Below, one piece after another: positions 21,591-53,068 of a stretch of DNA of 64,000 nt. The stretch lies in the NCBI RefSeq assembly GCF_000355905.1, contig NZ_APLF01000009.1, forward strand, positions 124,001-188,000, in the 5' to 3' direction. The position numbers and the translations under genes were made by a program. This DNA comes from Psychroflexus gondwanensis ACAM 44 (GTDB lineage: Bacteria; Bacteroidota; Bacteroidia; Flavobacteriales; Flavobacteriaceae). The notes under the pieces were generated by a model. The model had not been told where the DNA came from. It worked only from the letters and a program-made list of their open reading frames with translations, and made no database searches. The stretch's first letter is position 1. Each line of letters starts with the position of its first letter.

Positions 21591-21638
21591 ATAAAAATTG
21601 GATATAGATGTTTATATTTATAAGACTTATCCTTAAAA

Positions 21639-21950
21639 ATGAAAACTTATTACGTTTATATCCTTAAATGTTCAGATGACAGTTTTTACACTGGAATGAC
21701 GAATGATTTGGAACGAAGGTTTGAAGAGCATAGTTATGGACATAACAAACTAGCATACACTTTTAATAAGCGCCCTTTAGAACTCAAGTTTTTTGAAACA
21801 TTCAATGACGTTGTTCAAGCGTTTTATTTTGAGAGAAAAATCAAAAAATGGAGCAAAGCAAAAAAGCAAGCCCTAATCGATCAGAACTGGGATAGGTTAA
21901 AAGAACTTTCAATATGTAAAAATGACACTCATTATTCAAATAAGAAGTAG
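21639..21950 (+). CDS. Small GIY-YIG nuclease family protein
   Basis: A 103-aa single-domain GIY-YIG protein. The YVYILKC and FYTGMTNDLERR segments carry the two Tyr motifs and the catalytic-type Arg, and FYFERKIKKW supplies the metal-binding Glu. The length equals that of stand-alone YhbQ-like members, which are putative structure-specific DNases without a target-recognition domain. It is the only gene between the two minisatellite arrays, whose units have hairpin potential. A link between nuclease and repeats is a hypothesis. Confidence 0.88.
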   Translation: MKTYYVYILKCSDDSFYTGMTNDLERRFEEHSYGHNKLAYTFNKRPLELKFFETFNDVVQAFYFERKIKKWSKAKKQALIDQNWDRLKELSICKNDTHYSNKK

Positions 21951-21959
21951 TTCTTTTAA

Positions 21960-22690
21960 GGGACTATTCGAAAGAGGGTTCTCGACTCCGCCTGTCTAAT
22001 AAAAAGGTTCTCGACTTCGCTCGAACATAAACAATGTGTCAGGTAGCGTAGGGTTCTCGACTCCGCTCGAACGTAAACATGGTGTCAGAAAGGTTCGAAC
22101 ATAAAAAAGGTTCTCGACTCCGCTCGAACGTAAACAAGGTGTCAAGTAGGGTAGGGTTCTCGACTCCGCTCGAACGTAAACAAGGTTCTCGACTCCGCTC
22201 GAACATAAACAAGGTTCTCGACTCCGCTCGAACATAAACAAGGATGGCAGGGTTCTCGACTCCGCTCGAACGTAAACAAGTAGCACAGGGTTCTCGACTC
22301 CGCTCGCATAACAAAATTTCTCGACTCCGCTCGAACATAAACAAGGAGAAAAGTAGGGCAGGGTTCTCGACTCCGCTTGCATAACAAAAAGTTCTCGACT
22401 CCGCTCGAACGTAAACAAGTAGCGCAAGGTTCTCGACTCCGCTCGAACGTAAACATGGTGTCAGGAAGGCTCGAACATAAACAGGGAGAAAAGTAGCGCA
22501 GGGTTCTCGACTCCGCTCGAACGTAAACAAGTAGCGCAAGGTTCTCGACTCCGCTCGAACGTAAACAAGTAGCGCAAGGTTCTCGACTCCGCTCGAACGT
22601 AAACAAGTAGCGCAGGGTTCTCGACTCCGCTCGAACGTAAACATGGTGTCAGGAAGGCTCGAACATAAACAAGGAGTCAGAAAGGCTTGA
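21960..22690. repeat. Minisatellite array 2 (about 18 copies)
   Basis: About 18 copies of the same core as array 1, with the same linker repertoire. It begins with GGACTATTCGAAAG followed by GGGTTCTCGACTCC and ends with AACAAGGAGTCA and a diverged GCTTGAGC, matching both edges of array 1. Runs of identical consecutive units (for example near 22500-22620) point to recent unit amplification. Ends 60 bp before the trp promoter. Confidence 0.95.
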
Positions 22691-29396: not shown

Positions 29397-29684
29397 TTGT
29401 CACTTCGAGTGATTTTCGATAGAAAATTGTATCGAGAAGTGCTTTTAAGCTATGGGATTAATCGATGTCTCTATAACATTTACGTTCTCTTTCTTTTTTG
29501 CATCGCCCAAAAAAGAAACAAATCCCCAAAGCTTTGGGGACTAGGCTTACGAAATTCCTCCTAAAATTATCGCTCACCCTCTAAATTTTAGAAACTCACC
29601 CTCCTAAAGTCGGTCTCAGACAGTCTAAAATTTTACGAGGCTTTTGCCTCAATTTTTACGGCTGAATTTAGTAGGCCGTTTTCT
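29397..29684. repeat. Long dispersed repeat, copy A (type 1 middle)
   Basis: The copy starts with GTCACTTCGAGTGATTTTCG, then GATAGAAAATTGTATCGAGA, and ends with TAGGCCGTTTTCT. The middle contains CCCCAAAGCTTTGGGG, a perfect palindrome, and TCGGTCTCAGACAGTC. The same ends and the same kind of middle occur in copy B. Confidence 0.85.
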
Positions 29685-30008
29685 ATGTATCGAGAAGCTT
29701 GCCACCTCGAACCTACAATTGTCATCTCGAGGGAAACGAAGTGACGAGAGAACTCTGTCCACCACTCACTATTACACCATTATACTAACACACTATTACA
29801 CCATTATACTACTACACCACTATACCAACCCACCACTCACTATTACACCATTATACCACTACACCACTATACTAACCAACCACTCACTACTTACCACTCA
29901 CTACTACACCATTATACTATTACACCACTATACTAACCAACCACTCACCACTCACTACTACACCACTATACGATTACACCATTATACTAACCCACCACTC
30001 ACGACTCA

Positions 30009-30298
30009 CTTGTCACTTCGAGTGATTTTCGATAGAAAATTGTATCGAGAAGTTATTTGAAGTCACGATATTAGTCCAGGTCTCTATAACATTTACGTCC
30101 TTATTCATTTTTTCCATTGATGAAAAAACGAACCAATCCCCAAAGCTTTGGGGACTAGGCTTACGAACTTCAGTCTAAAATTTACGTTTGATGTCTAAAT
30201 TTTAGAAACTCTACCTCCTTAAGTCGGTCTCAGACAGTCTAAAATTTTACGACACCTTCACTTTAATTTTTACGCCCTCTTTTCGTAGGCCGTTTTCT
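30009..30298. repeat. Long dispersed repeat, copy B (type 1 middle)
   Basis: The same boundaries as copy A, with the CCCCAAAGCTTTGGGG palindrome and the CGGTCTCAGACAGTC segment. In its left part it carries CATTTTTTCCATTGATG, shared with copy D, where copy A has TTTTTTGCATCGCCC, shared with copies C and F. The copies are therefore chimeric with respect to one another. Confidence 0.85.
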
Positions 30299-30771
30299 AA
30301 CTATCAAGTGACCGTTTTCATAAAAATTTGAATTTTGAATTTTGAAATTTTAAATATGAAATGATCAGTCTTAATGTGGCTTCGATACAATTTTTCAAAA
30401 GAAAAACCACTCAGCCACCGGTCCACCAGTTAACCAGTCTACCAGTCAACTACTCACTACAGACAGACAACAGACAACTGAAAACTGAAAACAGAGAACT
30501 CACCTCTCACGACTCACTTCTCACCACTCACCATTCACCAAAAATCCACTAAACCACTATACTAACCAACCACTCACTATTACACCATTATACTACTACA
30601 CCACTATACTAATCCACCACTCACCACTCAACTCCAATCCCTCCCTTAGGCTTAATCGAGTTCTCGATACAATGGCTTTGGTCTATCGACACAAACCCAT
30701 CACTCGAACTGACAAGGTTCTCATTACAACTTTTTTACTTACCTTTAGCGTTAGTAATGTAAAAGAGTAGT

Positions 30772-31053
30772 ATGATTGTTTCTTTTCGCTCGAAAGAGAC
30801 CAAGCAAATTTGGAATGGTAATCGGGTAAAGAAAATACCGATTGAAATTCAAAGAATAGGTCGCAGAAAATTGAGAATGTTGAACAATTCACAAGATATA
30901 ACTGACTTAAGAATTCCTCCATCCAATCGACTTGAGAAACTAAGTGGAAATTTAAGCGGTTTTTACAGCATACGGATCAACAAGCAATGGAGAATAATTT
31001 TTAAGTGGGATAAGGGACTCGCAAGCGAGGTAGACATAAAAGATTATCACTAA
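30772..31053 (+). CDS. higB: HigB/RelE-type toxin
   Basis: A 93-aa toxin of the RelE superfamily, plasmid-maintenance killer type: MIVSFRSKETKQIWNG at the start, RRKLRMLNNSQDITDLR in the middle, and GFYSIRINKQWRIIFKW as the final catalytic strands with conserved Arg. HigB toxins cleave mRNA on the ribosome. The gene precedes its antitoxin by 11 bp, the reversed order typical of higBA. It appears intact and sits in a repeat-rich stretch. Confidence 0.9.
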   Translation: MIVSFRSKETKQIWNGNRVKKIPIEIQRIGRRKLRMLNNSQDITDLRIPPSNRLEKLSGNLSGFYSIRINKQWRIIFKWDKGLASEVDIKDYH

Positions 31054-31064
31054 AATCAAAGACA

Positions 31065-31370
31065 ATGGAAAAGTTAGAAAATGTACATCCAGGTGAAATT
31101 TTATTATACGAATTTTTGAAACCACTCGACATTTCTGCCTATCGACTCTCGAAAGATTTGAGCATACCGCAAACACGAATTTCTGAAATCGTAAAAGGCC
31201 GTCGAAGAATAACAGCGGATACCGCTCTGCGTTTGAGTAAATATTTTGGGAATTCTGCAAAATTTTGGCTCGGACTTCAAGATGACTTTGATATCGAAGA
31301 AGGAAAAGAGCAGAAAAAAAGTGAGCTTAATTCAATAAAGAAATACGTTGATAAAAATGTTGCCCTTTAA
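31065..31370 (+). CDS. higA: HigA-type antitoxin
   Basis: A 101-aa XRE-type helix-turn-helix antitoxin. HPGEILLYEFLKPLDISAYRLSKDL and RISEIVKGRRRITADTALRL are the family's hallmark segments, and the recognition helix lies around residues 40-55. It would neutralise HigB and repress the operon. Confidence 0.92.
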   Translation: MEKLENVHPGEILLYEFLKPLDISAYRLSKDLSIPQTRISEIVKGRRRITADTALRLSKYFGNSAKFWLGLQDDFDIEEGKEQKKSELNSIKKYVDKNVAL

Positions 31371-32178
31371 AAGTTAGGGGTGAATAGCGAGCATGTTAAA
31401 TTTTATTACTTATCAGTTTACAGTCTTCAGTCTACCAGTCTACCAGTTCATCCTTGTCATCTCGAGGGAAACGCAGTGACGAGAGATCTCTATCTACCAG
31501 TCTACAGTCACCGGACCACCGGTCTACTTGTCAACCAGTCTACCAGTTCACCAGTTTACCGCAAAGCGATAGCGCGACACGGAATCTTTTCAAGTGGTGC
31601 ACTAAGGTTGAATACGTTATGTCACTTCGAGCCTGCCTGCGTTCCTTGGAAGGCAGGTGATTTTCGATAGAAAATTGTATCGAGAGGTTCTTTAATGTTA
31701 GGAGATTAGTCGAGGTCTACATAATATTTATATTCTTTTTCTTTTTTGCATCGCCCAAAAAAGAAACAAAAAAGACTAGGCTTATTTTTATGTCTTTGAA
31801 AACTACAAAAGCGGTTCCTCCACGCAAAGCAAACCGTTTCACTAGCGCTTTGCTCCTTTATCCTTTCTTCACCACTTTTTTGTTTTCTAACTTCCATAAA
31901 AAATAGGCCGTTTTCTAACTATCAAGTGACCGTTTTCATAAAAATTTGAATTGTCAATTTTGAAATTTTAAATATGAAATCTAATCCACCACTCATCTCT
32001 AATAGCTCCCTTAGGCTTAATCGAGTTCTCGATACAATGGCTTTGGTCTATCGACACAAACCCATCACTCGAACTGACAGAAACAACTGACAACTCACCA
32101 CTCACCACTCACTTGTCACCACAGACAGACAACAGATAACAGACAACTCACGTCTCACGACTCACCACTCACCATTCA
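31371..32178. repeat. Repeat region between higBA and mazEF
   Basis: No gene is seen in 0.8 kb. It holds CAGTCTAC/CAGTTCAC-type 8-bp words (31420-31560), a second hairpin repeat (about 31562-31612), long repeat copy C, a segment (31909-31980) also found at 30291-30362, the 58-bp segment (near 32021-32078), and 7-mer words of the ACTCACC and ACAGACA kind up to the mazF stop. Confidence 0.82.
31618..31915. repeat. Long dispersed repeat, copy C (type 2 middle)
   Basis: It has the same left end as copies A and B, with CCTGCCTGCGTTCCTTGGAA and GGCAGG inserted after CACTTCGAG, and the same TAGGCCGTTTTCT right end. The middle is different: GAAAACTACAAAAGCGGTTC, then GCAAAGC ... GCTTTGC arms that can pair. 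This type 2 middle recurs in copies D and F. Confidence 0.85.
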
Positions 32179-32502
32179 CTAATCCACAAAAGTTTCTTTT
32201 AAAACCTCTTTACAATGGTCTATTTCAGATTGTTTAAGGGGGTCAAAAACGTTAAGGACTCTTTGTTTGTCGATGGTTCGGACTTGATCTATGACTATCA
32301 TTCCTTTTTTACCATTGGATTCAACAGGTACTCGAGTGGGATAAGCTTTTAGAGTTGTTGTCATGGGTGCTATAACAATGGTCCTTATAAATTTATTCAT
32401 TTCGTTTGGTGAAATAATGACACAAGGCCTTGTTTTTTTGATCTCGCTTCCCATTGTGGGATCTAAATTGACGAGGACAACTGAATATTGATTTAGTTCC
32501 AT
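32179..32502 (-). CDS. mazF: MazF/PemK-type toxin endoribonuclease
   Basis: A 107-aa MazF-like toxin that would cleave mRNA at short motifs. YSVVLVNLDPTMGSEIKKTRPCVIIS is the family N terminus with the catalytic-type Arg, and VIAPMTT and GMIVIDQVRTIDKQRV complete the SH3-like barrel. It starts 10 bp inside the antitoxin gene, so the two are co-translated. Confidence 0.92.
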   Translation of the reverse strand: MELNQYSVVLVNLDPTMGSEIKKTRPCVIISPNEMNKFIRTIVIAPMTTTLKAYPTRVPVESNGKKGMIVIDQVRTIDKQRVLNVFDPLKQSEIDHCKEVLKETFVD

Positions 32503-32738
32503 TCCTCAAAGGTATCTTCATCAAAAACATCATTGATAAGAAGCGTATCGTCATTATTTTTCGACATTTCTTTGAACTTTTTCTCCCAGTTTTTTCTAGG
32601 AGTATCCACAGGCCTAAGAATAATTTGACCTTTTTCTAAAATGAGCTCAACTTTATCTTTAATCTGGTATTTTTCCAATATAGTTTTACTCAACCTTAAT
32701 CCTTTAGAGTTTCCTATTTTTATAATTGATACTTCCAT
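32493..32738 (-). CDS. mazE: MazE-like AbrB-type antitoxin
   Basis: An 81-aa antitoxin with an AbrB/SpoVT swapped-hairpin domain (IIKIGNSKGLRLSKTILEKY, VELILEKGQIILRPV), which would bind DNA as a dimer. The acidic tail (NDDTLLINDVFDEDTFEEW) would occupy the MazF active site. A perfect 12-bp palindrome lies 10 bp upstream of its start. Confidence 0.9.
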   Translation of the reverse strand: MEVSIIKIGNSKGLRLSKTILEKYQIKDKVELILEKGQIILRPVDTPRKNWEKKFKEMSKNNDDTLLINDVFDEDTFEEWN

Positions 32739-32748
32739 ATGTTGTAAA

Positions 32749-32760
32749 TTGTATATACAA
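32749..32760 (-). promoter_or_regulatory. Candidate MazE operator
   Basis: TTGTATATACAA is a perfect palindrome located 10 bp upstream of the mazE ATG. An AbrB-type dimer would be expected to bind such a site and repress its own operon. Confidence 0.5.
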
Positions 32761-34054
32761 AGTTATTACTTTTATTGTTGTTTTGTTCTATTATTATGAA
32801 ATTTATAGCAGACTCAAGACTTATTGTAATATGGCTTCGATACAATTTTTCAAAAGAAAAATCACTCAGCCACCCCCTCTCCCTTGACATACCGACAGAG
32901 AAGCCCTTTTTCTTCGACGAGGAATCTCTCCCATTCCGTGCAAGCGATAGCGAGATACGGAATCTTTTCAAGTGGTGTACTAAGTTTTAATGCTTTATGT
33001 CACTTCGAGTGATTTTCGATAGAAAATTGTATCGAGAAGTTCTTTAATTTTAGGAGATTAGTCCATGTCTCTATAACATTTACGTCCTTATTCATTTTTT
33101 CCATTGATGAAAAAACGAACCAAAAAAATCTAGGCTTATTTTTATGTCTTTGAAAACTACAAAAGCGGTTCCCCCACGCAAAGCAAACCGTTTCACTAGC
33201 GCTTTGCTCCTTTATCCTTTCTTCACCACTTTTTTGTTTTCTAACCTCCATAAAAAGTAGGCCGTTTTCTTTACATCGAGAAACTTGTCACTTCAAGCTG
33301 TCACTTCGAGTGATTTTCGATAGAAAATTGTATCGAGAAGTAGTTTGAAGTTATGGGCTAAAAAGAGTTCTCGATACAATGGCTTTGGTCTATCGACACA
33401 AACCCATTACTCGAACTGACAGAAAGAACTCACGACTCACGTCTCACCACTCACTATTATTCCATTATACTACTACACCACTATACAAACCCACCACTCA
33501 CGACTCACCACTCACGACTCACGACTCACGTCTCACGACTCACTACTCACTATTTCACCATTATACTACTATACCACTACTCCTTTAAACTATTACACTA
33601 CTTAATAACGCATACAAAGTCATTATTATCAAACTTTAACACTTAGCTAAAGTGCCTAATAATCGTCTTTTTAGTCTTTTTGTTGCAGTCTTAAGTCCTA
33701 ATGTGGTACAAACATGTACAATAGTTGTATCATTTATACTATATTTGTCTTGACAGTCGATAGGGTGGAAGTTATCGGGTTTCACTAACAAATACTTAGC
33801 TCAACAATCAGCGATCTTACTAGCTCTCTCGATTTTTGAGCTTTTTTATGCTTAAAATTTAGGGTACGTGAAATTCGAGCTGATGCTTGTAGACAGCCAT
33901 GGGGTTGGTTTTTAAATTCGAGCTGAAGATTTGAGTTAGCCGAGAGGTCGAAATGAACCAGTCGAGAAGAGTAAATCACGATAAGGAAAAGTGAAGACTA
34001 TTACTCATGAAGTTAAATTTTTCATTTGAATAAGAAGAGCTCTAACTAGACTGC
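32761..34054. repeat. Repeat region between mazEF and the HU gene
   Basis: No gene is seen in about 1.3 kb. It contains a CTTCGATACAATTTTTC element (32836), a third hairpin repeat (about 32935-32985), long repeat copy D, a partial left end (33297-33345, copy E), the 58-bp segment (33367-33424) and ACTCACG heptamers (33424-33600). From 33600 to 34054 there is unique AT-rich sequence. It includes a partial copy (33796-33826) of the segment at the 3' end of the HU gene (TCAGCGATCTTACTAGCTC). Confidence 0.8.
32998..33270. repeat. Long dispersed repeat, copy D (type 2 middle)
   Basis: The left end reads GTCACTTCGAGTGATTTTCG; the middle has GAAAACTACAAAAGCGGTTC and the GCAAAGC/GCTTTGC arms; the right end is AGTAGGCCGTTTTCT. 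It lacks the CCTGCC insertion of copies C and F. Confidence 0.85.
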
Positions 34055-34095
34055 ATAAAAAAGCCCTCTGGCGGGTGGAATTTACCAGAGGGCTT
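34055..34095 (-). terminator. Terminator of the HU-like gene
   Basis: Read on the minus strand, AAGCCCTCTGG (34095-34085) pairs with CCAGAGGGCTT (34071-34061) and is followed by a T run. It lies about 35 bp after the HU stop codon. Confidence 0.85.
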
Positions 34096-34128
34096 CACTA
34101 ACACTTGGTTAGCTCATCAGCGATCTTA

Positions 34129-34509
34129 CTAGCTCACTTTTTTGTAATTGACCGTCTGCAGTAAGTCCCTTAGGGCTTTTGCAGGTCTAAAGGAAATTTT
34201 AGCCTTCCTCACTAAGTTAGAAGTAACCTCTTCTTCGGTATCTACCGCGTCTGAACTTACTCCTATCTGGAAGTTGCCGATGTTGCCTAACTCGATGATT
34301 CTCCCTTCTCTAAGCTCATCCATCATGTTGTGTAATAAAGCCTCAAGGACAGCATAGCAGTCGGGCTTACGCACGGTGGACTGATTGGAGATTAGGTAGG
34401 CCAAACGGTCTAGATCAGTTTTACCAGCGCCAACGGCTTGGACATAAAACTTCTTTGGAGCTTCCACATCCCGTGGATTGACTCTCTGCAATGATTTTAA
34501 TTGAATCAT
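34129..34509 (-). CDS. HU-like DNA-binding protein (HU-HIG type)
   Basis: A 126-aa member of the Bacteroidota branch of the HU/IHF family. The HU core is recognisable (LAYLISNQSTVRKPDCYAVL, LREGRIIELGNIGNFQI, KISFRPAKALRDLL), with an N-terminal extension and a long charged strand (SSDAVDTEEEVTS). Such proteins bend and compact DNA; several paralogues per genome are usual. It is an isolated gene in a repeat-rich stretch with its own terminator. Confidence 0.9.
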   Translation of the reverse strand: MIQLKSLQRVNPRDVEAPKKFYVQAVGAGKTDLDRLAYLISNQSTVRKPDCYAVLEALLHNMMDELREGRIIELGNIGNFQIGVSSDAVDTEEEVTSNLVRKAKISFRPAKALRDLLQTVNYKKVS

Positions 34510-34827: not shown

Positions 34828-35120
34828 CCTCGAGCCTGCCTGCGTTCCTTGGAAGGCAGGTGATTTTCGATAGAAAATCGTATCGAGAAGTGCTTTTAAG
34901 CTATGGGATTAATCGATGTCTCTATAACATTTATGTTCTCTTTCTTTTTTGCATCGCCCAAAAAAGAAACAAAAAAGACTAGGCTTATTTTTATGTCTTT
35001 GAAAACTACAAAAGCGGTTCCCCCACGCAAAGCAAACCGTTTCACTAGTGCTTTGCTCCTTTATCCTTTCTTCACCACTTTTTTGTTTTCTAACCTCCAT
35101 AAAAAGTAGGCCGTTTTCTT
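34828..35120. repeat. Long dispersed repeat, copy F (type 2 middle)
   Basis: It has the CCTGCCTGCG insertion shared with copy C, then a stretch (GCTTTTAAGCTATGGGATTA) shared with copy A, the type 2 middle, and the TAGGCCGTTTTCT right end. Copy F therefore mixes parts of C-like and A-like copies. Confidence 0.85.
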
Positions 35121-35668
35121 TCTATTGAGAGGTGGTCTAATGTTAGGTGCTCAATCGAGTTCTCGATACAATCGCTTTGGTCTATCGACACAAACCCATC
35201 ACTCGAACTGACAGAAACTACTTACTAGTCGACAGTCCACAGTTATCAGTCACCAGTTCACTAGTCTACCAGTATACCAGTATACCAGTTCACCACTCAC
35301 CATTCACCATTATACCACTACACCACTATACTAACCAACCACTCACCACTCACTATTCTACAACTCACAACTCACCATTCACCACTCACAACTCACCACT
35401 CACAACTACACCATTATACAACTACACCACTATACTAACCCACCATTCACCATTCACCACTCACGACTCACCACTCACCACTATACTAACCCACCACTCA
35501 CCACTCACCACAGACAGACAACTGTCAACAGACAACAGAGAACCCCACCACTCACCACTCACCACAGACAACAGACAACTGACAACTGACAACAGACAAC
35601 TGAAAACACACAACTGTCAACTGAAAACAGAAAACTGAGAACTCACCACTCAATACCAACAAAAATTG

Positions 35669-35676
35669 TAAATTTG
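35669..35676 (+). promoter_or_regulatory. Possible -7 element of the glycan locus
   Basis: TAAATTTG matches TAnnTTTG right after the low-complexity tract and about 100 bp before the permease start. No -33 box is visible. Confidence 0.3.
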
Positions 35677-35774
35677 GCCCAGAATTATAAATTTAAATCT
35701 CATCTCTACCAGGCAAGCTTAGCGTATAAGTTTGGATGGTTTGCAATGAGAGACTACAGTTAACGAAACGCTTT

Positions 35775-36650
35775 ATGAACAGCACCAAAACTTCCTCTCA
35801 AGATTCTGATTGGTTATACGAGATTAAAGCAGAGAAGAAACTTCTAGATTTTAATTTTAAGGAAATTTGGAGGTACCGAGATCTACTGGTTTTATTTGTG
35901 AAACGGGATATAGTAACCGTGTATAAGCAAACTATACTCGGCCCGCTTTGGTTTTTAATTCAGCCGCTATTTACTTCTGTTATTTTTACATTGGTGTTCA
36001 ATAATGTGGCTAATATCCAAACGGGTACTGTGCCAAGTTTTCTGTTCAACTTAGCGGGGATTACCGCTTGGACCTATTTTAGAGAATGTCTTACGGGTAC
36101 TTCGGGCACCTTTACAAAAAACGCGGGTATCTTCGGCAAGGTGTATTTTCCTAGGGTCATTATGCCGATGTCGGTGACTATCTCCAACCTACTTAAGCTG
36201 GGTATACAACTTAGTATATTTGCGGGGTTTTACATTTACTTCGTGGCATCTGGTAAAGACATCAGCCCCAATGCCAATTTGGTGCTGTTCCCCGCTTATG
36301 TCTTTATAATGGGAATGACGGGTTTGGGTTTGGGCATGATCTTATCCTCTTTGACCACCAAATACAGAGATTTTACGGTGTTGATCACCTTCGGTGTACA
36401 ATTACTGATGTATATCTCGGCTGTTCCTTTTCCTATGTCTGAGATCTTGGAAAAGAAACCAGAATACTTTTGGGTGTTTAAGTACAACCCTATCGCCCAG
36501 ATCATAGAAGGCTTCCGGTATATGACTTTAGACACAGGACTTTTTACGTGGTGGGGCTTTTTCTATGCCTTAGGTTTTTCCTTAGTGGTGTTTTTTATGG
36601 GCTTAGCTATTTTTAACAGGACGGAGAAGAGTTTTATAGATACGGTGTAG
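35775..36650 (+). CDS. Polysaccharide ABC exporter, permease (Wzm-like)
   Basis: A 291-aa ABC-2 permease of the O-antigen/teichoic-acid exporter class. The DLLVLFVKRDIVTVYKQTILGPLW segment before the first membrane helix and the YRDFTVLI coupling region are typical of Wzm. About six membrane segments follow. The matching ATPase gene is downstream at 37267, but a four-helix-bundle gene and two heptamer arrays lie between them. The ATG at 35775 is chosen over an upstream start at 35736 because homologues begin close to the KAEKKLLDFNFKEIWRYRDL segment. Confidence 0.92.
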   Translation: MNSTKTSSQDSDWLYEIKAEKKLLDFNFKEIWRYRDLLVLFVKRDIVTVYKQTILGPLWFLIQPLFTSVIFTLVFNNVANIQTGTVPSFLFNLAGITAWTYFRECLTGTSGTFTKNAGIFGKVYFPRVIMPMSVTISNLLKLGIQLSIFAGFYIYFVASGKDISPNANLVLFPAYVFIMGMTGLGLGMILSSLTTKYRDFTVLITFGVQLLMYISAVPFPMSEILEKKPEYFWVFKYNPIAQIIEGFRYMTLDTGLFTWWGFFYALGFSLVVFFMGLAIFNRTEKSFIDTV

Positions 36651-36687
36651 CGCCAGAGGCGCGGTTAACAGTTAACAGTTGATAGTT

Positions 36688-36785
36688 AACCGACAACCAA
36701 CAACTGATAACCGACAACTGATAACCAACAACCGATAACTGACAACTGACAACCGACAACCAACAACTGATAACCGATAACCGAA
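36688..36785. repeat. Degenerate heptamer array 1
   Basis: Fourteen consecutive 7-bp units, all fitting AAC[CT][GA]A[CT] (last unit AACCGAA), with no slippage. Unit types seen are AACCGAC, AACCAAC, AACTGAT, AACCGAT and AACTGAC; AACTA types are absent. The array ends 2 bp before the ATG of the four-helix-bundle gene. It is preceded by partly palindromic GTTAACAGTTAACAG sequence. Confidence 0.95.
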
Positions 36786-36787
36786 TA

Positions 36788-37156
36788 ATGAAATCTCATA
36801 AAGATTTAGACATATATAATCTAGCATTCGAGTATGCTGTTGAGGTTCATAAACTGACCTTGAAGCTACCTAAGTATGAGTTATATGAACAAGGGAGCCA
36901 GGTAAGACGTTCATCAAAAAGCATTAAAGACAATATTATAGAAGGTTATGGGCGTAAGGCTTATAAGAATGATTTTATAAAATTCTTGATCTACGCTTAC
37001 GCTTCTTTGTTGGAGTGTAAATCACAATTGGAAATGATAAGTCAACTTTACCCTGATCTAGAGGTGGAATCAATGATTGTGAAATATGATGAATTAGGTG
37101 CAAAAATTTATAAATTTACCAACTATGTTGAATCTAATTGGAAAACCAACAGATAA
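36788..37156 (+). CDS. Four-helix-bundle protein (23S-IVP/Avd-like)
   Basis: A 122-aa all-helical protein of the family once called S23 or 23S rRNA intervening-sequence protein. MKSHKDLDIYNLAFEYAVEV, the RRSSKSIKDNIIEGYGRK turn and the long helix with YASLLECKSQLEMI are diagnostic. A relative, Avd, binds nucleic acid and assists diversity-generating retroelements, but no reverse transcriptase is seen here. It sits between wzm and wzt, with heptamer arrays touching both ends. The last codons (ACC AAC AGA TAA) already belong to the downstream array. Confidence 0.9.
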   Translation: MKSHKDLDIYNLAFEYAVEVHKLTLKLPKYELYEQGSQVRRSSKSIKDNIIEGYGRKAYKNDFIKFLIYAYASLLECKSQLEMISQLYPDLEVESMIVKYDELGAKIYKFTNYVESNWKTNR

Positions 37157-37266
37157 CCAACAACTGACAACTGATAACCAACAACCGATAACCAACAACC
37201 GACAACCGATAACCGACAACTGACAACCAACAACTGACAACTGACAACCGATAACCGACAACCGAA
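37155..37266. repeat. Degenerate heptamer array 2
   Basis: Sixteen consecutive units of AAC[CT][GA]A[CT], beginning inside the stop codon of the four-helix-bundle gene and ending with AACCGAA directly against the ATG of the wzt-like gene. Unit order differs from array 1, so the two are not simple copies. Confidence 0.95.
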
Positions 37267-38535
37267 ATGAATAACATTATTCTAACCGCCCAAAACATCT
37301 CCAAACAATACCGCCTTGGTGTGGTAGGAACGGGGACGCTGAGTCACGACCTCAACCGGTGGTGGGCGAGTTTAAGGGGTAAAGAAGATCCGTACCTAAA
37401 AATTGGGGCTGAAAACGACCGCAGTAAAAAAGCAGAGACTGACTATGTGTGGGCTCTACGCGATATCAATTTTGACGTTTACGATGGCGATGTGTTAGGG
37501 ATTATTGGGAAAAATGGTGCAGGAAAATCTACTTTGCTCAAAATCTTATCGCGAGTGACTTCTCCCACTACGGGAACCATCAAGACCAAAGGAAGAATCG
37601 CTTCGCTACTGGAGGTGGGCACAGGGTTTCATCCCGAATTGACTGGTCGTGAAAACATTTACTTGAATGGAGCTATTTTAGGGATGACCAAAGCAGAAAT
37701 CAGAGAAAAGGAAGAAGAGATCATTGAGTTTTCAGGATGCCAGCTGTATGTGGATACGCCCGTGAAGCGGTATTCCTCAGGAATGCGGGTGAGATTGGCT
37801 TTTGCGGTAGCGGCTCACCTCGAGCCAGATATTCTGGTGGTGGACGAAGTCCTTGCCGTAGGCGATGCCGAGTTCCAAAAGAAAGCCATTGGTAAAATGA
37901 AAGATATCTCTGGTAACGATGGGCGAACCGTCCTGTTTGTCAGTCATAATATGGCGGCGGTAAAAAGTTTATGTACCCGAGGGATTGTCTTGGAAAATGG
38001 GAAAATAGCTTTTGAAGGTGGGACAGATGATTGTGTTAGTTATTATTTGAGTAAAAAAGATAATGATGCTACTGAAACTTTTCCAATTAAATTTGATGAG
38101 GGCGAAATATCGAAATTTGTAGTCCTTGATTTTATTGGAAATAACTCAAACTTGTTGTTGGGTGAAAGATGCTCATTTGAATTAAACTTAAGAATTAAAA
38201 ATCCAAAATCAACCAGAATTAATGTTAGGTATCAGGTTTTTGATAAAGACGAAAAATTAATTACCACACTAAATACATTTCATCTAAATGCTAATAAAGT
38301 TTTAGAAAAATTCGATCAAAGTTTTGTTTGTTTTATTTCTAAACTTAAAATTTCACCTGGATTATATGACCTTGGAATTCAAATTTTAGATTTAAACTCC
38401 AAAAAAGTTTTGTATCAAAACGATGTTTTTAGTGAGGTTGTAGTAGAATCTGGCGATGTATTCAAAACAGGAAAAATTCCTTCTAAAGAAAATCTCGGAG
38501 TATTTTTATCTGATCAAACTTGGCAAATCAAATAA
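37267..38535 (+). CDS. Polysaccharide ABC exporter, ATPase (Wzt-like)
   Basis: This 422-aa protein energises glycan export with the Wzm-like permease. Walker A GKNGAGKST is at 81-89, the signature YSSGMRVRLAFAVA lies near 170, and Walker B is ILVVDEVLAVGD. Residues from about 260 form an immunoglobulin-like Wzt C-terminal domain (NVRYQVFDKD, LKISPGLYDLGIQI), which in studied systems binds the modified glycan end. The DNA is clearly more AT-rich from about 38030, at the domain border, suggesting that the C-terminal domain was exchanged together with the genes that follow. Confidence 0.92.
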   Translation: MNNIILTAQNISKQYRLGVVGTGTLSHDLNRWWASLRGKEDPYLKIGAENDRSKKAETDYVWALRDINFDVYDGDVLGIIGKNGAGKSTLLKILSRVTSPTTGTIKTKGRIASLLEVGTGFHPELTGRENIYLNGAILGMTKAEIREKEEEIIEFSGCQLYVDTPVKRYSSGMRVRLAFAVAAHLEPDILVVDEVLAVGDAEFQKKAIGKMKDISGNDGRTVLFVSHNMAAVKSLCTRGIVLENGKIAFEGGTDDCVSYYLSKKDNDATETFPIKFDEGEISKFVVLDFIGNNSNLLLGERCSFELNLRIKNPKSTRINVRYQVFDKDEKLITTLNTFHLNANKVLEKFDQSFVCFISKLKISPGLYDLGIQILDLNSKKVLYQNDVFSEVVVESGDVFKTGKIPSKENLGVFLSDQTWQIK

Positions 38536-38540
38536 AAGAA

Positions 38541-39230
38541 ATGATTTCACATAAGCATAAGTTTATATTTATACATATTCCTAAATGTGCGGGTTCATCA
38601 ATAGAAACTGCGTTTGGTATCGATGTTAATGTAAACGAACTTAATAATGAACATCTATTTGGGTGGGATCCGACTTATAAAATCTATTTGCAACATGCCA
38701 CTCCTCAGCAATTATTGGATTATAAATTTGTGACACCTCAGCAATGGGACACTTATTATAAATTTATTATTGTAAGAAATACTTGGGATAAAGTCATGTC
38801 AGATTTTTTTTGGTTTAGAGAAACTAAAAGGTTTTCAGGGTCTTTTGATGATTATTTATTTGGCAAAAATGATTTTTCAAGATTTATGAATAAGGGAGAA
38901 AAGAAATATAGGGGAGACCACCTCACCTCTCAGACTGATTTTATGTTTTTGAATTCCAAGGAAATTAAATTTGACAAAATAATTTATTTTGATAAAAAAA
39001 ATCTTGATAAAGAATTTGATGGTCTAGTAAAAGATCTCGAATTGTCTGATGGTTTTTTTAAAAGAAGAGTACAAGTTGGTAAAAAATTCAAGAAGCATTA
39101 CTCTAAATTTTATACCAATAAAATGAAAAATCAGGCGTATAAAAAGTATAAAAAAGATGTATATTTTTTTGACTTTAATTTTGAAGATAAAAGAAATTGG
39201 TTGGATTTTTTGAAACTAAAATTCAATTAA
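38541..39230 (+). CDS. Sulfotransferase family 2-like protein
   Basis: A 229-aa protein with the PAPS-binding signatures of carbohydrate sulfotransferases: FIFIHIPKCAGSSIE at the N terminus (5'-phosphosulfate loop) and FIIVRNTWDKVMSDFFWF (3'-phosphate segment) around residue 80. It would add sulfate to the surface glycan. The ATG at 38541 is used because the frame's earlier TTG at 38520 overlaps wzt. Strongly AT-rich. Confidence 0.85.
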   Translation: MISHKHKFIFIHIPKCAGSSIETAFGIDVNVNELNNEHLFGWDPTYKIYLQHATPQQLLDYKFVTPQQWDTYYKFIIVRNTWDKVMSDFFWFRETKRFSGSFDDYLFGKNDFSRFMNKGEKKYRGDHLTSQTDFMFLNSKEIKFDKIIYFDKKNLDKEFDGLVKDLELSDGFFKRRVQVGKKFKKHYSKFYTNKMKNQAYKKYKKDVYFFDFNFEDKRNWLDFLKLKFN

Positions 39231-48189: not shown

Positions 48190-48245
48190 CGTTTTTCGTT
48201 TACTGTTCAACGTAAAACGAGAAACTACCAACTAAAAACGAAATT
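48187..48245. repeat. Degenerate short-word linker before the second four-helix-bundle gene
   Basis: GTTTTTC, GTTTACT, GTTCAAC, GTAAAAC, then ACCAACT and AAAAACG words fill the gap from the epimerase stop to 3 bp before the next ATG. The linker after that gene (48599-48646) uses similar words (GTTTACC, GTTTAAC, GAACAAC, AACAACT). Confidence 0.65.
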
Positions 48246-48596
48246 ATGAATTACAAAGAACTTGATGCGTGGAAAGAATCCATGGAGCTTGTACAATTAG
48301 TATATGAAATCACGCAGAAGTTTCCAAGTGAGGAAAAATTTGGTTTAGTCAGTCAATTGAGGAGAGCTTCAGTTTCTGTACCATCAAATATTGCGGAAGG
48401 TTGCAGTAGAAGTTCGAACAAAGAATATAAAAGATTTGTTGAAATTGCGTTAGGCTCAATTTTAGAATTAGAAACTCAGCTTATCATTGCTGCAAAATTA
48501 AAACTGATCCACAGTGAACATCCAGTTTTTAAGAAAATAGAAAATACAATAAAAATAATGCACGGCCTCATTCGCTTTTTGAAAAAGAATAGCTGA
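48246..48596 (+). CDS. Four-helix-bundle protein (23S-IVP/Avd-like)
   Basis: A 116-aa second member of the family, of the more canonical type: MNYKELDAWKESMELVQLVY, then LVSQLRRASVSVPSNIAEGCSR and ALGSILELETQLIIA. It lies between the epimerase and a glycosyltransferase, with short degenerate repeat words on both sides, the same arrangement as the paralogue between wzm and wzt. The two proteins are clearly different in sequence, so this is not a recent duplication. Function unknown. Confidence 0.93.
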   Translation: MNYKELDAWKESMELVQLVYEITQKFPSEEKFGLVSQLRRASVSVPSNIAEGCSRSSNKEYKRFVEIALGSILELETQLIIAAKLKLIHSEHPVFKKIENTIKIMHGLIRFLKKNS

Positions 48597-48647
48597 TATA
48601 CTTTAGCGTTTACCGTTTAACGAACAACGCCCAACTAACAACTTATC

Positions 48648-49805
48648 ATGAAAATCATCATCTTCGACGGTTCTTTTAAAACCACAGCCTTTATCAATCG
48701 CTTGGTTGAAGGTTTGGTGAGCAATGACGTTGAGGTCTTTGTGTTAGGCTTTAATGAAGAACTTAAGCAACCTCTTAAAGGGGTGAAATATATTGCTTTA
48801 GGCAGTAGTGCCAGTAAATGGAAATTTATGTGGACCAGTCTGATTTGGGGTTTAAGATCTAAGTCACTTTTAAAGACTCTTAAGCGTTTGACATCCGGAG
48901 ATAAATCTCAACTCAAACGACAAAACCTAACAGCAGCTTTAGAGTATATTCAACCCGATGTGGTTCATGTGCAATGGGTCTCCAATATTAGTTTGTTTGA
49001 AGATTTACTCAAACCCCAAACCTATAAATTTGTCTTATCACAACGCGGATATCAAACCAACGTGAGGCCTTTTGTGGATAAAGCTAATTTTGAGTATCTC
49101 CAACACTGGCTACCTCGATTTTCAGGATTTCATTCAGTCTCTCAAGCGATCTCCAAAGAAGGGAATAAGATTTATAATAGCCCAAATAAAATTGACCATG
49201 TTGTGTATACAGGGTTGGAGCTATCTAAATTTGAATTTAATCCTCTAGTTGTCCAAAACGAAGTATTAGAAATTATTTCTGTAGGTCGTCCCCATTGGAA
49301 AAAAGGTTACGATATCGCTTTAAAGGCTTTAGCTCTTTTAAAGAAGAAAGGTCTTCAACTCAATTACCAAATAATTGGTGCAGAAGGTAACCAAGAATTG
49401 TTATTTTTAAGAAATGAGTTAGATTTGGAGACTGAAGTGGAATTTTTACCGAAATTACCACAACAAAAGGTTTTTGAAATGATGTCTTCGTCAGATATTT
49501 TTTTATTATCAAGTATAGAAGAAGGCATTGCCAACGTAGCGGTGGAGGCTATGGCTTTGGGTTGTCCAGTCATCTCCACCAATTGTGGGGGAATGGAAGA
49601 ACTCATTACTCATCAAAAAGAAGGCTGGATCGTCCCGGTTTATGATTATAAAGCCATGGCAGCTCAAATTTTGGAATTTAGCCAACTGGATTCAGAATAT
49701 ATCAAAAACATAAAACATGCTGCTCGCTTAAAAGTTGAGCAACAGCATACTGAAATGGAAATGGTAGAGGGGATGATGAGGTTGTATAATCGAGTAGTAA
49801 GGTAG
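48648..49805 (+). CDS. Glycosyltransferase family 4 protein
   Basis: A 385-aa GT-B enzyme. The N-terminal half has the PDVVHVQWVSNISLF interior strand, and the C-terminal half has SVGRPHWKKGYDIALKAL and EEGIANVAVEAMALGCPVISTNCGGMEEL, the EX7E nucleotide-sugar site. The N-terminal glycine loop is reduced (DGSFKTTAFINRL). Probably adds one sugar of the repeat unit. Confidence 0.9.
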   Translation: MKIIIFDGSFKTTAFINRLVEGLVSNDVEVFVLGFNEELKQPLKGVKYIALGSSASKWKFMWTSLIWGLRSKSLLKTLKRLTSGDKSQLKRQNLTAALEYIQPDVVHVQWVSNISLFEDLLKPQTYKFVLSQRGYQTNVRPFVDKANFEYLQHWLPRFSGFHSVSQAISKEGNKIYNSPNKIDHVVYTGLELSKFEFNPLVVQNEVLEIISVGRPHWKKGYDIALKALALLKKKGLQLNYQIIGAEGNQELLFLRNELDLETEVEFLPKLPQQKVFEMMSSSDIFLLSSIEEGIANVAVEAMALGCPVISTNCGGMEELITHQKEGWIVPVYDYKAMAAQILEFSQLDSEYIKNIKHAARLKVEQQHTEMEMVEGMMRLYNRVVR

Positions 49806-50230
49806 TTGAGGGTCAAAGAGTCGAGAGTTGAAGAGTCGAAGAGTTGCGAGTCAATGAGTCGAGAGTTGAAGATTCGAGGGTCAAGGAGTCGAAGGGTCGA
49901 AGAGTTGTAATATGTTTCAACATCGAGCGGAGTCGAGATGGAGTTTGTTCTCGATACTTCGACTTTCGCTCAGCACTGGCAAGCTCGAACGTAAACAATG
50001 ATAACGGTTTCATTTATTGAAGATCTGAATCGAACCTAAACAAGATGGTGGTGTTTTCTCTCATGTTTCAACATCGAGCACTTAAACTCTTCAGCATAAA
50101 CTCTGTCGAGATACATTTAACTTACATTATACAAAAGTTCTCGACTCCGTTCGAACATAAACAAATTGGAAATACTATTTTTGAATCCTTATAACCGATT
50201 TCACGAATAAACCAGTGTTTGAATACTCTA
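49806..50230. repeat. GAGTC-word array and dispersed elements
   Basis: 49806-49905 is a tract of 7-8-bp words such as GAAGAGTC, GAGAGTT and GAGGGTC. Then come TGTTTCAACATCGAGC elements (two of eight copies in the locus), a TTCGACTTTCGCTCAGCACT element and one copy of the GTTCTCGACTCCG minisatellite core. The last roughly 110 bp before the start codon are nearly identical to those before 53069. No gene. Confidence 0.85.
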
Positions 50231-51628
50231 ATGAAAAAAATAAAAACTCCCATCATCCCCATCCACCAAACTTTCGTCAAGATCAAAAACGAACCTGAGG
50301 AGTTGGACCATAAAGCGATTTGCTTGTTCGCCGCTACCGGTTTCTTTTGGGATGATAGCACGTATTGGAAACATAAAAAAGTCTTACGTCCAGGAACGAT
50401 TAGTGAGATTGATAACAACGGCTACTTGGTAAGCTCGAAAGCTTGGTTTAAGTGGTATTATAAACCCAGAACTCAAAGCTTTGTTGCTTCTTTACAGCAA
50501 TACCAAGAGTTATTTGAGCAAATCATAGAGGAGCAAATCGGAGATCAACAAGCGATTTTGCCTTTGTCTGGAGGTTTGGATAGCCGAAGTCAGGCCGTGG
50601 CTTTAAAAAAATTAGGAAAAAAGGTGGCGTCCTATTCCTATTCGTTCCAAGGTGGTTACAAAGAGCATAAGATCAGCCAGCAAATCGCTAAAGTTTGTGA
50701 TTTTGAGTTTCAGGCTTTTGAGATTCCACCCCATTATTTATGGGATAGTATAGATGAGTTAGCCGAGATCAATCAATGCTATTCTGAGTTTACGCATCCC
50801 CGTCAGATGGGAGTGTTGGAGGAGCTTAAAAAAATGGAAGGACTGTTTTCTCTAGGCCATTGGGGAGATGTTTTATTTGATAAGGGCGGTGATGAAGGTA
50901 TTCAAGACCAGGATTTAGTGGATTATATCCATAAAAAAGTAATCAAGAAAGGAGGAATGGAATTGGCACAATCCATATGGCAGTCCTGGAATTTAGAAGG
51001 TGATTTTAAGACTTATTTGAAGGAGACTACTCAGACCTTGCTCAAACGAATTGACATCCAAAACACCTCAGCTAAAGTAAGAGCATTTAAATCGATGTAC
51101 TGGGCGCCTCGCTGGACCAGTATTAATTTAAGTGTGTTTGCAGCGGCTCATCCAATTACTTTGCCTTATTATGATGATCGCATGTGCGAGTTAATTTGTC
51201 AGCTTCCAGAAGCCCATTTGGCCGATCGAAAATTACAAATCGAATACATCAAGCAAAACAATCCGCAGGTCGCTAAAATTGTTTGGCAAGATCAAAAGCC
51301 TTTTAATCTGACTAATTTTCAAAAGAACAAAACACCCTATAATTTACCATATCGAGTTGTCGACAAACTCAAACGTGAAGTCCAAGCCAAACTAGGCAAG
51401 AAATTCATTCAGCGCAATTGGGAATTGCAGTTTTTAGGAAAAGAGAATGAAAGACAATTAGAATCGCATTTATTTAATTCCAATTTTAAAGACTTTGTGG
51501 ATCCGAGTCTAGTCAAAGATCTGTATACTAAATTTAAAACCCAAGATCAAGTGTTTTATTCGCATCCTGTGAGTATGTTGTTGACGTTGAGTGTTTGGAA
51601 TAGCAGGGAGTTGAGTAGTCGTGAGTAG
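50231..51628 (+). CDS. Asparagine-synthase-like amidotransferase domain protein
   Basis: A 465-aa protein with the ATP-pyrophosphatase loop PLSGGLDSRSQ at 111-121 and further asparagine synthase segments (GHWGDVLFDKGG, YYDDRMCELICQLPEAHLADRKL). The N-terminal 95 residues resemble the second half of the glutaminase domain (TGFFWDDSTYWKHKKVLRPGTI), but the catalytic N-terminal Cys is absent. It should adenylate a carboxylate and may use ammonia or another amine, for example to amidate a uronic acid. Start 50231 is supported by the duplicated upstream block shared with 53069; an ATG at 50219 is less likely. Confidence 0.82.
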   Translation: MKKIKTPIIPIHQTFVKIKNEPEELDHKAICLFAATGFFWDDSTYWKHKKVLRPGTISEIDNNGYLVSSKAWFKWYYKPRTQSFVASLQQYQELFEQIIEEQIGDQQAILPLSGGLDSRSQAVALKKLGKKVASYSYSFQGGYKEHKISQQIAKVCDFEFQAFEIPPHYLWDSIDELAEINQCYSEFTHPRQMGVLEELKKMEGLFSLGHWGDVLFDKGGDEGIQDQDLVDYIHKKVIKKGGMELAQSIWQSWNLEGDFKTYLKETTQTLLKRIDIQNTSAKVRAFKSMYWAPRWTSINLSVFAAAHPITLPYYDDRMCELICQLPEAHLADRKLQIEYIKQNNPQVAKIVWQDQKPFNLTNFQKNKTPYNLPYRVVDKLKREVQAKLGKKFIQRNWELQFLGKENERQLESHLFNSNFKDFVDPSLVKDLYTKFKTQDQVFYSHPVSMLLTLSVWNSRELSSRE

Positions 51629-53068
51629 TGTTGAGTCGTGAGTAGGTAGTTAAAGAGTCAAGTAGACAAGGATCGAGGGTCAAAGAGTAGAAGGGTCGAG
51701 AGTCAATGAGTCGAGAGTCAATGAGTCGAGAGTCAAAGTTTGAAGGATTTTACTATGTTTCAACATCGAGCTGCCTGTACTGAGCGTAGACGTAGTAGGG
51801 TCGAGATGCATTTAACTTACATTATACAAAAGTTCTCGATACTTCGACTTTCGCTCAGCACTGGCAAGCTTGAACATAAACAAGGGTAGAAGGGTTTAAA
51901 GCTAAAATATCGAAAGGTGAATAACTTTATTTTCTTTTGCCCCTCCCTAAAGGGTGAGAAAATAAAGCATTTGAAATAAAAGGATTATTTTAGTAAGATT
52001 GAAGCCATCCACCCTTTAGGGTCGGGGCCAAGATGGCGGAGTTTTCTCCCGTGTTTCAACATCGAGCACTTCAACTCTGCAGCATAAAGTCTGTCGAGAT
52101 GGATTTTGTTGTCGATACTTTAACTTTCGCTCAGCACTTGCAAGCTCGAACATAAACAACGATATCGGTTTTAATTATTAAAGATCTGAATTGAACCTAA
52201 ATATAATGGCGGTGTTTTCTCCCATGTTTCAACATCGAGCTGCCTGAATTGAGCGGAGACCTAGTAGAGTCGAGAGTCGAGCGTCAAGGAGTCGAGGGTA
52301 AACTAGTCGAGAGTCAATGGGTCAAAGAGTCGAAGGTTAAAAGGTCAAGTTTTGAAGAGTTGTAATATGTTTCAACATCGAGCGGAGTCGAGATGCATTT
52401 AACTCACATTATACAAAAGTTCTGGATACTTCAACTTTCGCTCAGCACGAGCAAATTCGAACATAAACTACGTGGAAGGATCTCAATTGTCTGTTTTTCT
52501 GATTCTAACACTTAAGCGAACAAGAATAAATAAAAAGTTCTCGATACTTCGACTTTCGCTAAGCACTGGCAAGCTCGAACATAAACAAGGGTAGAAGGGT
52601 TTAAAGCTAAAATATCGAAAGGTGAATAACTTTATTTTCTTTTGCCCCTCCCTAAAAGGTGAGAAAATAAAGCATTTGAAATAAAAGGATTATTTTAGTA
52701 AGATTGAAGCCATCCACCCTTTAGGGTCGGGGCCAAGATGGCGGTATTTTCTCTCATGTTTCAACATCGAGCTGCCTGAATTGAGCGGAGACCTAGTAGA
52801 GTCGAGAGTCGAGAGTCGAGCGTCAAGGAGTCGAGGGTAAACTAGTCGAGAGTCAAAGAGTCGAAGGTTAAAAGGTCAAGGTTTGAAGAGTTGTAATATG
52901 TTTCAACATCGAGCTGCCTGTACTGAGCGAAGACGTAGTAGGGTCGAGATGCATTTAACTTACATTATACAAAAGTTCTCGACTCCGCTCGAACATAAAC
53001 AAAAGAGAAATACTATTTTTGAATACTTATAACCGATTACACGAATAAACCAGTATTCGAATATTCTA
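51629..53068. repeat. Large repeat mosaic between glycan genes
   Basis: A stretch of 1.44 kb without a gene. It has GAGTCAATGAGTCGA-type word tracts (51629-51745, 52258-52365, 52795-52895), six of the eight TGTTTCAACATCGAGC elements, CTTCGACTTTCGCTCAGCAC elements, and a 212-bp block (51828-52039) repeated at 52533-52744 with only a few mismatches. The block includes a CTTTATTTTCT...AGAAAATAAAG hairpin. It ends with the minisatellite core and the block shared with the region before 50231. Confidence 0.9.

Follow-up and report, generated by a model that had tools for sequence, protein, structure and literature searches.

What is a small gene doing between the two genes of a polysaccharide exporter, and why is it bracketed by strict heptamer repeats? 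The question is raised by a stretch of 64,000 nt from Psychroflexus gondwanensis ACAM 44 (genome of 3.31 Mb, coded G000 in our comparison within the genus), hereafter the window, in which a gene for a four-helix-bundle protein of family PF05635/TIGR02436, known as 23S rRNA intervening-sequence protein (IVP) or S23, lies between a wzm-like permease gene and a wzt-like ATPase gene, with 30 heptamers running in phase around it. Our comparisons, which are statistics on sequence, show that PF05635 genes often sit at the centre of a composite unit, made up of a 5' repeat arm, an open reading frame (ORF) and a 3' repeat arm, between co-directional genes; that the arms are short quasi-periodic repeats, mostly of period 7 with 8 or 9 in some families; that they are frequently inverted, so that the transcript is predicted to be foldable into a long imperfect stem whose loop contains the ORF; and that arm sequence and period go with the protein family from site to site and, in the two families tested, from genus to genus. 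This suggests that gene and repeats function as one unit, with a repeat dialect of its own in most family branches examined. The predicted anatomy of the unit is that of the intervening sequences (IVSs) of 23S rRNA, from which the protein takes its name, and the reading that we favour, with moderate confidence, is an IVS-type element, that is, a protein and its cognate repeat stem, placed between cistrons.

The Psychroflexus IVP genes compared here are a sample: 171 matches were counted in 27 genomes, and 60 regions together with the search loci gave 120 ORF hits, 109 of them distinct. The subsets used were 72 loci with both spacers at least 40 bp long, 84 loci with both spacers at least 20 bp long and both neighbours present, 102 of the 109 for shuffle z scores, and 91 for strand. 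Control genes were taken from the IVP loci themselves, and the controls are conservative because some of them share an arm with an IVP gene. A direct local score of at least 30 between the two flanks was reached by 49% of the 72 IVP loci, compared with 7% of 159 controls and 3% of 1403 mismatched pairs. The predicted RNA duplex between upstream and downstream spacers (U:D) fell within the top 5% of mismatched partners at 49% of the 84 loci versus 12% of 189 controls, and the mean duplex free energy was -22.2 for a locus's own pair against -12.6 for mismatched pairs. Upstream-downstream pairing was stronger than in shuffled sequence (z<-2) at 60 of 102 loci, and 87 of 91 IVP genes were co-directional with both neighbours, compared with 238 of 311 controls. 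Over the 74 loci with a clear period, the best period was 7 in 50, 8 in 15, 9 in 6 and another value in 3. On the strength of the control comparisons, an ordinary-gene background was set aside as the cause of the matched flanks.

The repeats also follow the protein family. When the proteins were grouped into 33 clusters at >=60% identity, and sites were called different if they had no flanking-gene cluster in common at >=60% identity, the k-mer cosine between arms of the same family at different sites was 0.287 versus 0.107, with 0 of 5000 shuffles reaching it (59 loci, one per family and site; 34 pairs). Agreement in period was 0.85 over all same-family pairs versus 0.50 when shuffled (0 of 2000); with one locus per family and site it was 0.78 versus 0.50 and was reached by 108 of 5000 shuffles, so that the period link alone is moderate at that level. 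Period 8 was found in all seven loci of fam2 and period 9 in all five of fam7, and the median cosine was 0.19-0.45 in 7 of the 10 families with different-site pairs. The original prediction had proposed to check whether AACYRAY arrays are enriched beside TIGR02436/PF05635 genes; the outcome was positive once the check was generalised to family-specific repeats, and AACYRAY itself is nearly limited to the home family (the family of the gene between wzm and wzt), with at least two such units in the downstream spacer of 3 of 105 other-family loci.

Outside the genus, homologs of the home protein at E<=1e-25 were present in 7 of 199 Flavobacteriaceae genomes, including G000 and G003, the G003 match being a fam7 member 42% identical to the home protein. 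Five home-family copies with 61-72% identity lie in five other genera (L297-L301, of which L299 is broken) and have arms of the GTT type, of the AAC type, or of both; the four intact copies showed period 7 (in L298 upstream only). Units of the AACCGAC type occur in four of the five, downstream in L297 (4 units) and L300 (12), upstream in L298 (8, as the reverse complement), and by eye in L299; in L301 the unit has shifted to AACACAC. Fourfold sites identical to those of the home gene numbered 4/14, 5/11 and 4/10 in three of the intact copies, which is near random, and 7/13 in L297. The AACCGAC-type repeats thus appear to have outlasted neutral sequence across genera. Likewise, a homolog of fam7 from another genus (68% identity) has kept period 9. 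For fam3, the cross-genus search with the protein gave no match at E<=1e-38.

Loci with this anatomy were also found in other phyla. Eighty loci came from a scan of named genomes and were picked for carrying a conserved motif and for resembling one family, and are therefore not a random sample; 66 were used, after leaving out L173, L189 and L198 (no ORF), L179 (N) and ten with a spacer <20 bp. Pairing reached z<-2 in 42 and z<-3 in 32 of the 66, compared with 7 and 5 of 53 control genes from those loci. Inverted flank words include GTGAATC / GATTTCAC in Desulfosoma, GTATTGA / TCAATAC in Ignavibacteria and GTAGTCA / TGACTAC in a deltaproteobacterium. On cyanobacterial plasmids (10 of 32 plasmid records), z<-2 was found in 4 of 10 loci, among them a Nostoc plasmid locus with GGGAGTA/TACTCCC (z -6.6). 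We take these cyanobacterial plasmid heptamers to be of the STRR kind.

Within the seven PF05635 genes of G000, each lies between low-complexity spacers, and by eye the two spacers of each gene are closer to each other than to the spacers at the remaining six. The second unit of the window (Table 1) gave a U:D duplex of -15.1 versus -7.8 for mismatched partners (rank 0.08). The simplest units have the gene set between plain inverted repeats, such as GAGAGGTGAGT...ACTCACCTCTC, GTTTTGAAACAGGAC...GTCCTGTTTCAAAAC and GATTAACGATTG...CAATCGTTAATC. In one conserved operon (g15...g1), PF05635 genes occupy up to four spacers and vary in presence between species; for instance, the g10-g9 unit is missing in G000 and present in G006, G013, G009, G007, G026 and G003. 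Shortened or broken PF05635 copies among repeat-like spacers were seen in L127 (13648-13830), L119 (2107-2295) and L299.

At the home locus itself, the original prediction held that all 30 heptamers obey AAC[CT][GA]A[CT] in a single phase. The single phase is confirmed; the pattern is exact in 28 of 30 units and fails in the last unit of each array, which ends in A. As had also been claimed, both arrays finish in AACCGAA, at the ATG (37267) or 2 bp before it (36788). The downstream array was said to supply the last codons and stop of the gene: it does supply the stop (TAA, 37154-37156), and the last codons come from an off-consensus AACAGAT (37148-37154). The YR pair over the 30 units is CG in 13, TG in 10, CA in 7 and TA in 0. 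Matches to three consecutive units numbered 24 in the window versus 0 in each of 100 dinucleotide shuffles, and these 24 are all that the whole genome contains, with 0 on the other strand and 0 for a reversed control pattern genome-wide; a chance origin of the arrays was rejected on these shuffles and counts. The unit variants (36688-37266) differ by transitions alone, except in the two end units, and such variants could still pair with a fixed G/U-rich partner strand through G-U wobble. No two adjacent AACTGAT occur among the 30 units, so that the TAACTGA direct repeat known from other bacteria is absent, with single TAACTGA words present. A short G/T-rich arm between the wzm stop codon and the first array had been overlooked; the predicted RNA fold pairs its GGUUA and CAGUU with UAACC and AACUG in the downstream array, and in the minimum free energy structure the outer stem closes over the ORF. 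On these features the home locus is a complicated, expanded member of the group, with AAC units on each side, a short GTT arm and a weak fold z. It lies between wzm and wzt and not within a 23S rRNA gene. A known structured RNA was set aside, with 0 Rfam matches at gathering score in 35000-38600, as was a phage origin, with no blastn match to phage records for 36640-37280. The wzt-like gene also has Wzt/TagH-type NCBIfam matches, which score below the cut-offs of those families.

Table 1. Coordinates of the home locus and of the second PF05635 unit, in positions of the window
Feature	Positions	Strand	Evidence
wzm-like ABC-2 polysaccharide export permease, upstream host gene	35736..36650	+	PF01061 E 2.8e-14
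Short G/T-rich 5' arm, GTT units, GGTTAACAGTTAACAGTTGATAGTT, complementary to AAC units	36663..36687	+	sequence, predicted RNA fold
Upstream heptamer array, 14 units (13 AACYRAY and final AACCGAA), then TA and ATG 36788	36688..36785	+	sequence
PF05635/TIGR02436 four-helix-bundle (23S-IVP/S23) gene, 122 aa	36788..37156	+	profile matches
Downstream heptamer array, 16 units (15 AACYRAY and final AACCGAA), abuts wzt ATG 37267	37155..37266	+	sequence
wzt-like ABC transporter ATPase, downstream host gene	37267..38535	+	PF00005
Second PF05635 unit, CGTTTxCGTTT / AACGAACAACG spacers on both sides, gene 48246-48596	48190..48647	+	profile match

The same wzm-wzt site was compared in relatives. There were 20 wzt matches in the 27 genomes of the genus, and the start side of 19 was examined by eye (L046 was left out). 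A PF05635 gene stands there in 10 of 19, and these come from three protein families: the home type (G000, G006, G009, G010), a second (G004, G013, G018, G026) and a third (G007, G011). In G016 the site has repeats without a PF05635 gene, and at the other 8 of 19 start sides no PF05635 gene was seen by eye or among the matches listed. The insertion had been thought to split a normally contiguous transporter pair. This is so for three of the eight gene-free sites, of a distant type, where wzm and wzt are nearly contiguous; as a general statement it fails. The repeats at the site vary by species and family, and the two sides of the gene are alike in most of the ten, with L092 (G011) differing on the upstream side in the part adjoining the gene. 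Between the close relatives G000 and G006, unit number and order differ, a variation that the original prediction had proposed to look for. In G006, the closest relative (L033/L137), an ORF end lies between wzm and the array and was read as resembling the C-terminus of an insertion sequence transposase.

The protein gives a clear profile match to PF05635 (E 4.7e-24; 85.1 bits versus a curated cut-off of 33.8) and to TIGR02436 (E 3.1e-26; 91.7 bits versus 24); PF05635 is its sole match in Pfam, and TIGR02436/PRK12275-type families are its sole matches in NCBIfam. Its AlphaFold2 model has four helices (pLDDT 94.2), and the best Foldseek match was 2gsc (XCC0516; TM score 0.87, E 7e-5), followed by 2rld (BT_0352) and, weakly, by the Avd protein of diversity-generating retroelements (DGRs; 8ubb, 4dwl). 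XCC0516, a solved relative, is an assembly of five bundles. Between the home ORF and its G006 ortholog, the ratio of nonsynonymous to synonymous divergence (dN/dS) was 0.04 at a dS of 0.075, and IVP ORFs in general are under purifying selection, with a median dN/dS of 0.157 and none >0.5 (144 of 220 pairs usable). PF05635/S23 proteins were found in 61 of 80 genomes sampled from the home phylum.

Known 23S rRNA IVSs (Leptospira, Coxiella and others) carry a PF05635-type ORF within a loop that is closed by a stem of terminal inverted repeats, as is often predicted for the units described here. The Coxiella IVS has a 28-bp terminal stem that RNase III cleaves in vitro; ahead of its S23 ORF stand tandem heptamers, strain-variable in number (PMC4990558, in the part concerned with this IVS), just as tandem heptamers precede the home ORF. 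In contrast to 23S rRNA IVSs, the present units sit between protein genes, come in many families per genome, most with a repeat of their own, often have long quasi-periodic arrays as arms, and carry an ORF under purifying selection. Following the IVS reading, the four-helix protein would bind its cognate repeats, most likely as RNA; the stem would be cut by a double-strand RNase, as in 23S IVSs; cutting would take the unit out of the polycistronic mRNA, with little cost to the host operon; protein and repeats would spread or be replaced together; and array length would change by whole units. Protein binding, RNA cleavage and mobility of the unit are thus put forward because of the IVS precedent and the co-variation of family and repeat. 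The original prediction had offered, as one of two ideas, that the arrays are the footprint of a repeat-targeting element whose product is the Avd-like protein. The footprint idea has gained support, in that flank matching is general and repeats and period track the family; of the targeting idea, the family-repeat link was borne out, and targeting itself is something that we infer.

Several observations weigh against this reading. Coevolution of pairing is weak: a locus's own U:D duplex beat the cross-species one in 127 of 220 ordered pairs, lost in 83 and tied in 10, and it surpassed the average of the crosses at 40 of 72 loci. With so weak an excess among orthologs, we do not claim compensatory change. 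Three families have median cosines near or below the background median of 0.089 (fam0 0.12, fam4 0.13, fam9 0.02), and fam2 relatives in other genera (55-58% identity) can differ, with AGTGAAT in L144 and L172 and not CGAATA. In a less selected, Bacteroidota-wide sample, z<-2 was found in 11 of 24 loci (24 of 29 usable). The RNA fold of the home locus is mildly unusual (z -1.82; 2 of 20 shuffles equally good), and the locus is outside the best 60 of 84 U:D duplex ranks, for which its upstream spacer was limited to 100 nt. The window, like G016, holds arrays without an IVP gene. The Coxiella authors consider S23p probably not produced in vivo (PMC4990558, in the same part). Furthermore, three of the ten cyanobacterial plasmid loci (L306, L307, L308) are antisense to both neighbours, a position that fits poorly with removal from an operon mRNA. 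Finally, GIY-YIG genes also have inverted flanks: in the 23 of 30 genus loci that were usable, z<-2 occurred in 8, z<-3 in 6 and a direct score of at least 30 in 7. A small gene amid inverted repeats is therefore not unique to IVPs. The strongest GIY-YIG flanks listed look like palindromes of the repetitive extragenic palindromic (REP) type and not like heptamer words. A HigB control gave 0 of 15 usable loci, the ORF not being found or a spacer being <20 bp. In the window, a GIY-YIG gene (21639-21950, in the stretch 21037-22687) has tandem GGTTCTCGACTCCGCTCGAACATAAACAA units on both flanks, and GIY-YIG genes with flanking repeats are possibly a second system of a gene with its cognate repeat.

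The main rival, which we judge possible but unlikely, is a mobile element acting at the DNA level, in which the repeats would be recombination or insertion ends, the protein a DNA-binding accessory of an enzyme supplied by the host or in trans, and the RNA stem a by-product. The linkage of family and repeat across different sites, the absence of the g10-g9 unit from G000 in an otherwise conserved operon, and the three IVP families at one wzm-wzt site would all be expected of it. Transposases of the REP-associated tyrosine (RAYT) kind offer a parallel, their genes being flanked by cognate inverted repeats, with solo REP/REPIN sequences elsewhere, as IVP genes have cognate inverted flanks and solo repeats. 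However, the IVP units have short-period arrays and not single palindromes, the home protein has no match to the REP-associated (Y1) transposase in Pfam or NCBIfam, and no nuclease or transposase-like domain was found in its 122 aa by Pfam, NCBIfam or Foldseek. Arms that are quasi-periodic and degenerate do not look like the fixed ends of a transposon, and no target-site duplication was obvious, with no search aimed at them. An operon position that is 96% co-directional would also be out of the ordinary for a DNA transposon, short of filtering by selection. In short, the antisense cyanobacterial cases and the parallel with GIY-YIG genes and their REP-like flanks in the same genomes favour DNA, and the co-direction within operons and the precedent of IVSs point to RNA.

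The other of the two earlier ideas, that the array is an A-rich, unstructured leader free of a Shine-Dalgarno sequence, or, in a related form, that an A/C-rich array replaces the Shine-Dalgarno sequence or binds a post-transcriptional regulator, is in our view improbable as a full explanation. It accords with the ends of both arrays at or 2 bp before an ATG and with one genome in which most TAACTGA repeats lie just 5' of start codons (MacGregor 2015, PMC4679880, in the sections on that genome), but it leaves unexplained why the spacers on both sides of the gene match, why arms are inverted, and why their sequence and period depend on the IVP family; in addition, it is a G/T-rich arm that follows the wzm stop codon. 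The 3' arm may still act as a leader alongside the IVS-type element. That heptamer arrays merely arise and drift in spacers by neutral slippage, an insertion having split one array and so produced matching sides, is very improbable. Arrays without IVP genes, the differences in length and order between G000 and G006, a raised period 7 in the flanks of neighbouring control genes too, and the three families with little different-site similarity would suit it, but it does not account for sequence that stays family-specific from site to site, and in other genera despite near-saturated synonymous divergence, for two sides related by inversion and not directly alone, or for the recurrence of the anatomy in other phyla. 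A DGR relic, with an Avd-like protein and template-driven repeat variation, is scarcely credible: beyond the Avd fold match and a weak NCBIfam Avd match for the window's second IVP, the home locus has no reverse transcriptase, the one found in the genome (PF00078) lies on another contig (C29) and presumably resembles group II intron proteins, and the units vary by C/T and A/G at fixed positions and not in an adenine-directed way, so that a DGR cassette was set aside.

Returning to the IVS-type element, its pieces have been described separately. The PF05635-Avd resemblance is noted in part of PMC10053308, and it agrees with the shared four-helix-bundle fold, the difference being that DGR Avd is accompanied by a reverse transcriptase. 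TAACTGA heptamers have been reported in Beggiatoaceae, Cyanobacteria and Bacteroidetes, with binding of a post-transcriptional regulator proposed (MacGregor 2015, PMC4679880, in the passages on these repeats). These and the STRR heptamers resemble the present arrays in being intergenic, often near start codons and in overlapping phyla; the present repeats differ in being tied to four-helix genes, and one family has period 9 and another period 8. In the main text of PMC4679880, the terms four helix, 23S, S23, intervening and IVS are all absent. PF05635 genes have been described in CRISPR-cas loci, for example at cmr2/cmr3 (2013, PMC3936711), where the part of the text treating them describes co-occurrence and gives no flanking repeats; three of our plasmid IVP genes (L309, L310, L312) lie inside CRISPR-cas operons (cas10/cmr3, cas6/cas4) and are, like the genes in that part of PMC3936711, between operon genes. 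A link between PF05635 and repeats was not found in print among open-licence PMC papers, preprints being outside this scope. If the link holds, a family-specific repeat partner would be a concrete, testable ligand for PF05635/S23 proteins, and three separate literatures would be joined, on 23S IVSs, on Avd-fold proteins and on heptamer repeats in cyanobacteria and in sulfur bacteria; a further suggestion is that operons harbour co-directional insertions, possibly cut out at the RNA level. More broadly, and only tentatively, since we think it somewhat more apt to fail than to hold, PF05635 proteins and short-period arms may be cross-phylum two-part elements, each family reading its own word and period (7, 8 or 9 nt), of which 23S IVSs would be a special case in rRNA, and the heptamer arrays of Bacteroidota, Cyanobacteria (STRR) and Beggiatoaceae might largely be footprints, with or without the gene.

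Other repeat arrays were noted in the window. One at 35240-35643, upstream of wzm, has no IVP gene, and its 3' part (35517-35643, GACAACT/GACAACA) is near the home dialect and resembles a solo array. At 49804-52864, AGAGTCG-type arrays flank an ORF (50219-51628) on both sides, and no PF05635 gene was found there. An accessory stretch with ACTCACC/ACCACTAT arrays (29644-34509) includes HigB-HigA (30772-31370), a PemK/MazF-type gene (32179-32502) and an HU-like gene (34129-34509). At 60281-60590, a tandem duplication of ~102-126 bp includes TCGTATAGTAGTATAG repeats.

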